From assembly GCA_029553255.1 (NCBI GenBank), contig JAKPCM010000104.1:1-34759 (forward strand): a stretch of DNA of 34,759 nucleotides. Reading direction: 5' to 3'. Within the stretch, counting starts at the first letter, position 1. Every line of letters begins with the position of its first letter. Below the pieces are notes generated by a model. That model worked only from the letters and a program-made list of their open reading frames with translations. It searched no databases and was not told where the DNA came from. Positions 20,692-22,743 of the stretch are shown here, one piece after another. The stretch comes from Caldisericota bacterium. GTDB taxonomy: Bacteria; Caldisericota; Caldisericia; B22-G15. The translations under genes and the position numbers were made by a program.

Positions 20692-21040
20692 GGGGGCGAA
20701 AGGATCTCGACATGGAATTGATGTTTAAACCAGCAGGTGAGTTTGAGAGAACTCTAAAACTCTTAAAAATTTTAAAATGCCAACACAAATTATTCTTACG
20801 CAGTAGCTTAGGTGCTCTGCCAGTTTGAAGAAGTTTGGTTTCCTTGGCTCTTCAAACTGAGGCGTAAAGGAAAATAGTTCTTATCCACTCCTCATGGATA
20901 AGAATGAAAAAAAGAGGATACGCCCTGAAATCCTTTGCCTGTTAAGGATAAAGGGAAGAGAAAAAAATAACAGGATAAACCTGTAGAAGGTTTAAAAGGA
21001 GATTCCATGGACGCGGGTTCAATTCCCGCCGCCTCCACCA
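20692..21040 (+). ncRNA. ssrA: tmRNA; encoded tag ANTNYSYAVA*
   Basis: 5' GGGGGCG pairs with 3' CGCCTCC before ACCA; GGTTCAATTCCCGCC T arm; tag ORF gcc aac aca aat tat tct tac gca gta gct tag at 20779-20811. Confidence 0.95.
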
Positions 21041-21069: not shown

Positions 21070-22743
21070 ATGATGGAAAATATATCTAAAATAGTAAATT
21101 ATTTCGAAATTATCGTTTTTCTTCATGATATTGGAAAAATTTCATCACATTTCATAATGAGTAAAGATCCTGAGTTAAATATAAAAGATAGACACGCGAT
21201 GTTAATTCTTGAAGAAAAATTACCAGATAATCTGAATAAATTTTTAAAAGCACCTATTAATAAGATATTCGAAGAGTTGAATTATTTAGACAATGGAATA
21301 TCTCCAATTCATTTTATTTGCTCTCATCATGGATGTGATAGGTGCATATATAATGAAGATTGTATTAAATATGAGAAGAACTTTTATATAAAACTTCTTC
21401 AAATTTCAGATAGACTCGATTCTTCAAATCCACCAAACTCTAAAAAGCAACCATTTTATGAAACCTATTTATCTAACTTTTTCCTTATTGAAAAAAAGAT
21501 TGATTATACAAAAATTGATTTGATTAGAAAAAAATTTTTAGATTTGTTGGATTCAAGTTTTTACAATTTTAATAGGGAAAATTTTTTCAAATTAAGTAAA
21601 TTTTTTATGGATAAAACAATTTCAGAGACAAGAAGAGGAGCAAATGATGTTTCTCTTTTTACACACTCAAAAGCAGTCTCTTCAATTTTTAAAGCAATTC
21701 TTTTTGAGTATCTATATTTCAACAGTGAACCTCCAAAAAATATTTTCGATGTTGAATTAAAATTTTTAAAAACAAAAAAGGGCTATAAAAAATTAATAGA
21801 AGAAAAAATAGGATTTGGAAATTTGATATTTGATGTTGAAGATAATGAATATTATTTAATTAGTAAATATATTGATAGAACATTTTTAAAAATAAATAAT
21901 ATCAAGGGAAATATTGTTGAAAAAATAGAAATTGAAGAGACAGATAAAAATTATCTATATCCATTAAATCCAGAAAATCTATTATCAACAATGCTTGTAA
22001 AAAATCCTTATGATATGAATTTCAACTTTTCAAATTTAGTTGATAAAACAAAAAAAATCATAAATTTTGCAAGATACAACGAAATTGAAGAGCTGAATTC
22101 AAAAATTAAAGGAATAAAAAAACATATAAATAATTTAAAAAAGGGTGGGAAAACAGAAGAAATAAAGATTAAAAAAAATATATTAAAGAAGTTGATGAGA
22201 AGGGAATATTATTTAAAAAGAAAATATGAAGATAGTTTCAATGTTAAGGAGATTGAGAATTTTTTAATGAAAAGTTTAGCACCTATTAGACCTCCATCAA
22301 TTGTTAATTTTTCAAAATATTTAAATGAAATTATGGAAAAAAAGAAATATAATATAAATGAGTTAACTTTTGAAACTTTTTTAAAAAAACCTCTAACTTA
22401 TTCAAGAATAATTCAATATTGTATTGACATAAAAAAAATAAAAAATATTGATTTAATTCCAAAATTTTATGGAAAAGTAAAATTTACAAATAAAAAAGTT
22501 ATACCAAAATATCAATCGATTGAAGATATTAAATTTTTAGAAGACAAAATCATAATAAATATGGATAAGAAAAATATTGTTATCCCTGCATATTACAATG
22601 GAGAATATTTAGATAAATTGAATTTATATTTCATAGGAAAATTAGAAAGAAGAGGAAAATATATTTATCCTTTAAGAAATGGGAAAAGTTTAATTCATAT
22701 AACAAAATTAAAAAAGGGAGATAGAATAAAATTTATTATTTAA
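21070..22743 (+). CDS. Orphan HD-domain protein similar to the N-terminal part of Cas10/Csx11-type CRISPR proteins
   Basis: FLHDIGKISSHF, ICSHHGCDRCIYNEDC, LLQISDRLDSSNPP, TRRGANDVSLFTHSKAVSSIFKA; no GGDD palm motif found. Confidence 0.6.
   Translation: MMENISKIVNYFEIIVFLHDIGKISSHFIMSKDPELNIKDRHAMLILEEKLPDNLNKFLKAPINKIFEELNYLDNGISPIHFICSHHGCDRCIYNEDCIKYEKNFYIKLLQISDRLDSSNPPNSKKQPFYETYLSNFFLIEKKIDYTKIDLIRKKFLDLLDSSFYNFNRENFFKLSKFFMDKTISETRRGANDVSLFTHSKAVSSIFKAILFEYLYFNSEPPKNIFDVELKFLKTKKGYKKLIEEKIGFGNLIFDVEDNEYYLISKYIDRTFLKINNIKGNIVEKIEIEETDKNYLYPLNPENLLSTMLVKNPYDMNFNFSNLVDKTKKIINFARYNEIEELNSKIKGIKKHINNLKKGGKTEEIKIKKNILKKLMRREYYLKRKYEDSFNVKEIENFLMKSLAPIRPPSIVNFSKYLNEIMEKKKYNINELTFETFLKKPLTYSRIIQYCIDIKKIKNIDLIPKFYGKVKFTNKKVIPKYQSIEDIKFLEDKIIINMDKKNIVIPAYYNGEYLDKLNLYFIGKLERRGKYIYPLRNGKSLIHITKLKKGDRIKFII

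Follow-up and report, generated by a model that had tools for sequence, protein, structure and literature searches.

A 557-residue protein, encoded on the forward strand at positions 21,070 to 22,743 of the window (the whole 34,759-nucleotide stretch of Caldisericota DNA analysed here), is on balance probably a solo enzyme that goes back to the N-terminal half of a Cas10 of the type III-C kind (Csx11 branch), acts outside the crRNA effector complex and cuts single-stranded nucleic acid. The protein would combine a permuted HD domain with a truncated and catalytically dead palm1; a helical domain follows, as does a C-terminal β-barrel in some lineages. Having departed from the effector complex, the protein would bind two divalent metal ions at its HD site and hydrolyse phosphodiester bonds. 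The substrate is most likely single-stranded DNA or RNA, gripped by the basic helical part, because the Cas10 HD domain cuts single-stranded DNA (PMC11229360) and the protein's additional helices are both long and basic. RAMP partners being absent, the protein's own C-terminal domains may control activity. The most likely role would be chromosomal nucleic-acid clean-up or repair, not crRNA-guided immunity. No description of such a solo Cas10-type HD family was found in a literature search covering few subscription papers.

The gene is genuine, and its dN/dS of about 0.2 shows purifying selection. Its reading frame lies exactly where the earlier note had drawn it, and both neighbours named there are in place: a tmRNA gene (20,692 to 21,040, forward strand, called in the window only) ends about 30 bp upstream, and an operon encoding a nucleoside-type ABC importer lies downstream in convergent orientation. 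The source genome (87% complete, 176 contigs) holds one copy. dN/dS is 0.22 against the protein of the nearest relative, G002 (92% identity), and 0.17 between the HD proteins of G001 and G003, with an overall range of 0.14-0.29; values this low indicate that the protein is maintained by selection.

The permuted HD domain and its predicted metal site

Profile matches, the structural model and the alignment delimit a circularly permuted HD domain at residues 1-217 (21,070 to 21,720; this and all further features of the gene lie on the forward strand). An HD-x-G-K motif (H19, D20, G22 and K23; 21,124 to 21,138) and an H86-H87 motif (21,325 to 21,330) are invariant. A further predicted metal ligand, H42 (21,193 to 21,195), is invariant in the solo family and variable in Csx11 and Csm1. 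Within the SDRLDSS motif, which spans D114 to D117 (21,409 to 21,420), D114 is invariant in 25 solo proteins (22 aligned homologs and three proteins from a second phylum) and D117 in 22. The K126-Q127 signature (21,445 to 21,450) is also found in most Csx11 proteins. The last element, the permuted T187-H199 motif (21,628 to 21,666), supplies the histidine that in canonical HD domains precedes the other motifs. The ligands thus run in the order HD (19-20), H42, HH (86-87), D114 and H199, with one histidine after all the others. H199, carried by the NDVSLFTHS helix, sits past D114 and aligns with its counterparts in Csx11 and Csm1, which gives the domain the permutation of Cas10. This circular permutation has been described as characteristic of HD domains fused to type III Cas10 (Makarova et al. 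2011, PMC3150331).

The predicted metal-binding set (H19, D20, H42, H86, H87, D114 and H199) is complete and invariant in all 25 aligned solo proteins, and metal-dependent cleavage of DNA or RNA is the putative activity. The four motifs on which the earlier note had based its HD assignment, FLHDIGK, SHHG, SDRLDSS and TRRGANDVSLFTHS (residues 187-200), are all found in the protein. They are not there by chance, since 13 positions (H19, D20, K23, H42, H86, H87, R91, D114, D117, T187, R188, D193 and H199) are invariant in 22 homologs whose identity falls as low as 22-30%.

Three cysteines, C89, C92 and C98, stand beside the HH motif (residues 84-98; 21,319 to 21,363). They are kept in host families f1, f3 and f4 and lost in f7, and perhaps form a metal or Fe-S site adjoining the active centre.

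Kinship with Cas10 and the parts beyond the HD domain

The resemblance to Cas10 and Csx11 that the earlier note had proposed is borne out by profile searches over residues 12-233, in which NCBIfam returned Csx11 (TIGR02682, E 1e-13) and PADLOC returned Cas10c (E 1e-19). The Csx11 profile matches 19 of 20 solo-family members. At 50.3 bits against a curated cut-off of 248.95, the match falls short of Csx11 equivalog status. A distant match to the Cas3'' profile TIGR01596 (E 3e-4) was also obtained, and a Pfam search gave no significant match. Up to an E-value of 10, neither Pfam nor NCBIfam gave a match to the general HD hydrolases that might have matched better according to the earlier note (dGTPase, RNase Y) or to any other general HD family, so that this possible refutation of the Cas10/Csx11 kinship failed.

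Sequence searches of solved structures, with the single protein or a profile, returned nothing useful. The AlphaFold2 model (pLDDT 90.7, pTM 0.91) was more informative when compared with the PDB by Foldseek: the best ten folds are all chain A (Cas10/Csm1) of Csm complexes, at probabilities of 0.99-1.00 (9g9i_A, 9ash_A and 6xn5_A among them), against 0.23 or lower for ranks 11-30. TM-scores are low (about 0.3); the similarity to Cas10 is therefore one of domains, and the whole-length architecture is not Cas10-like. The model had no match in a viral structure library.

Kinship extends past the HD domain. Residues 222-300 (21,733 to 21,969) form a palm1 relic, recognised from the model and from Csx11 homology, with a ferredoxin-like order of strands and helices (β-α-β-β-α-β-β over model residues 230-297) and no GGDD. 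The profile alignment with Csx11 continues to residue 270, where GNLIFDVEDNEYYLIS matches GNSIYEDTNGIYFTFP. Aligned alone to Csx11 with hhalign, four f7 members left out, the post-HD part scored 49.8, and none of 100 column-shuffled controls exceeded 19.0. A shortened Cas10 palm1 is thus retained. The Csx11 alignment ends past the palm1 hairpin, no palm2 follows, whether with GGDD or inactivated, and the translation has no CxxC pair after residue 217 that could mark a zinc finger between palms. The earlier note's statement that the protein has no palm domain accordingly stands for the GGDD palm2 and the zinc finger and gives way at about residues 222-300, where the shortened palm1 persists.

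Two further domains are defined by the alignment and the model. A helical domain at residues 313-456 (22,006 to 22,437) contains two long lysine-rich helices and the invariant residues H352, N355, P408 and R446. The C-terminal β-barrel (residues 470-557; 22,477 to 22,740) is present in f1, f7 and the second-phylum genome G392, and missing in f3. Neither domain has a significant structural match: the helical domain alone found nothing in the PDB, and the C-terminal half folded separately gave weak barrel matches only.

Csx11 is the closest known system. It shares with the solo protein a permuted HD domain with ETR..ND..L..HS, D..DS...KQ and GN.iy.d.n.iyF..P segments, the lack of an active GGDD palm and a branch of the tree. 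However, the solo protein is about half as long (solo-family members have about 470-685 residues against about 1000) and lacks the zinc finger, palm2 and cas operon. Its HD ligands are invariant across the family, whereas several Csx11 copies have lost theirs. Csm1 and Cmr2, the Cas10 proteins of types III-A and III-B, also have the permuted HD domain and provide the best structural matches, but they form a separate branch and possess a GGDD cyclase, zinc finger and complex partners that the solo protein does not. The Cas3'' HD nuclease of type I systems has the same ligand set in an unpermuted domain and acts with a helicase. Csf1 of subtype IV-C is described as a large subunit that has been reduced and carries a relative of the Cas10 HD domain (PMC8730458); its HD domain is at the C-terminus and its gene stands beside Cas7/Cas5 homologs. 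The nearest precedent is mCpol (Panoptes), the minimal CRISPR polymerase, a cyclase-only relative of one Cas10 part that works outside CRISPR (PMC12657230). The mCpol paper makes no mention of an HD domain (PMC12657230). Where mCpol keeps the cyclase, the solo protein keeps the HD domain without it; as this mirror image, a small and presumably crRNA-independent version of the Cas10 HD domain would be useful for biochemistry.

Distribution, tree and neighbourhoods

A profile search matched 28 of 54 Caldisericota genomes. The matches in G015 and G024 are Csx11 proteins, leaving 26 solo carriers, two of them known only from fragments at contig ends; families f2 and f5 are without the gene. Among 386 genomes outside Caldisericota most further matches are Csx11, and solo relatives occur in three of nine genomes of a second phylum, with the whole architecture in G392 (E 3e-71) and an HD domain plus a reduced remainder in G369 and G390. 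Relatives in two phyla suggest that a Cas10-type domain was taken over for another job. No match was found among 50,697 phage and 72,556 plasmid records. A 473-residue frame in G381, outside the phylum, was rejected as a solo relative: it belongs to a Csx11 split into two reading frames of 467 and 350 residues (L169:5893-8757), within a type III-C locus that otherwise looks complete.

In an unrooted tree of 38 HD+palm1 sequences, the solo family forms one clade (support 96/97), and Csx11 and the solo family together stand apart from Csm1/Cmr2 (99/97). Branching inside the solo clade follows the host families, with f7, f1 and f3 each grouping. When the second-phylum proteins are included, one side of the unrooted tree unites the full set of 25 solo proteins (94/76). 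As the trees are unrooted, they do not give the direction of descent.

Neighbourhoods differ between host families. In f1 the gene lies downstream of phosphopentomutase (and of the tmRNA gene, called in the window only), and in G001, G003 and G004 phosphopentomutase precedes it across a gap of equal length. In f3 it stands directly 3' of LipS2, often in a LipS1-LipS2 pair, wherever the flank is present; in f7 the gene before it encodes a DUF4129 membrane protein, and a DUF58 gene is often present there too. Since no neighbour is common to all families, no partner is implied. A functional tie to lipoate synthesis was discarded: f7 genomes encode the HD protein but give no LipS2 match above the cut-off, and f2 genomes encode LipS2 but lack the HD gene. 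So was a tie to tmRNA, that position being common only to close relatives of the window.

At f3 loci of Caldisericum-type genomes (L036:5230-9502 among them), LipS1 and LipS2, a two-enzyme lipoyl synthase, come directly before the HD gene, and in some f3 loci a methyltransferase and a YkoF-like protein lie upstream of the pair.

CRISPR status of the carriers and competing readings

The earlier note had described the gene as an orphan, which agrees with the survey: no cas genes adjoin it in any neighbourhood surveyed, Cas7, Cas5 and Cas11 included, and a genome-wide search gave no RAMP (PF03787) match in 16 of the 26 carriers, G018 (one contig, 99% complete), G003 (100%) and G004 (96%) among them. 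Nor does the window contain a CRISPR-like repeat spacing, searched for as exact 20-mers repeated at 45-100 bp, in keeping with the array-free window reported before. The source genome encodes Cas1, Cas4 and a type I Cas3b with its own HD domain. Cas1 matches occur in 18 of the 26 carriers against four of the 28 other genomes. A tie to CRISPR as such was nevertheless rejected, eight carriers being without a Cas1 match and the co-occurrence being confounded by descent, because whole families lacking one gene lack the other.

That the protein supplies a missing HD subunit to a type III system encoded at another locus of its genome is scarcely credible. Some carriers do have type III loci, and the incompleteness of the source genome (87% complete) leaves a small chance there. 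However, that genome has no match to RAMP, Csm1, Cmr2 or full-length Csx11 and no detected type III locus lacking its HD domain, the situation raised in the earlier note. With Cas3 carrying its own HD domain and no type III locus detected, the solo gene does not complement a broken type III system. In G001, of the same genus, the Cas10 of a III-B locus retains a permuted HD segment of its own, the aligned Csm1 proteins of the phylum have HD domains of their own too, and the complete or near-complete carriers without a RAMP match contradict this reading. Very improbable, too, is a general HD hydrolase of dGTPase, RNase Y or HD-GYP type that became Cas10-like by convergence. HD-x-G-K is common to many HD families, but no such family scored, the homology to Csx11 extends beyond the HD domain and the permuted arrangement of the motifs has been described as a characteristic feature of type III Cas10 (PMC3150331).

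The reading that competes most seriously, though still rather doubtful, makes the protein a small-molecule phosphohydrolase, a Cas10-type HD domain acting on cyclic oligoadenylates, cyclic dinucleotides or nucleotides, for instance as a signalling off-switch. Hydrolysis of small nucleotides fits the HD motifs equally well; two-metal HD phosphodiesterases, HD-GYP for example, share the ligand set H, HD-x-G-K, H, HH, D; and the gene is chromosomal, in metabolic neighbourhoods (LipS1/LipS2, phosphopentomutase, Nudix). Against this, the metabolic neighbours differ between families, the 16 carriers without a RAMP match give no sign of a type III system making cyclic oligoadenylates, and the long basic helices would suit a polymer substrate. 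A stand-alone innate defence nuclease, such as a single-stranded DNase or abortive-infection effector, is unlikely. The protein is related to a defence protein, and the absence of its gene from f2 and f5 shows it to be dispensable. Defence genes are usually mobile between genomes, though, and this one is single-copy, follows host families in its tree, has no adjoining defence genes and is unmatched in the phage and plasmid records.

Origin is a related question. According to published scenarios, type III Cas10 acquired its HD nuclease domain by capture, with the source left unnamed (PMC8730458). The solo family could conceivably be a surviving relative of that donor, descended from a CRISPR-free HD+RRM enzyme from which Cas10 would have taken its HD domain. 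Kinship with such a pre-CRISPR donor is improbable; descent from Cas10 is favoured, mainly because part of a palm is retained and the family lies close to Csx11. The earlier note had left ancestral and domesticated states side by side, and on these two features, with an unrooted tree, the evidence leans to the derived state. With its permuted HD domain, a predicted active site that is intact, a remnant of palm1 and no CRISPR partners, this clade-conserved chromosomal family is either a case of a domesticated CRISPR nuclease or a clue to the HD donor.

Some CRISPR loci of the surveyed genomes have features of their own. In G024 (L053:5611-9264, reverse strand), Csx11 of a type III-C locus is fused N-terminally to an AbiEii nucleotidyltransferase (PF08843, E 2e-30) and preceded by an AbiEi gene, and in G078 (L055) AbiEii is a separate gene at the corresponding place. 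A toxin-antitoxin guard on the III-C system is possible. Genomes of genus g8 (G011, G015, G019 and G023) show weak two-piece Cas1 matches in frames of 313-329 residues, possibly a divergent Cas1.
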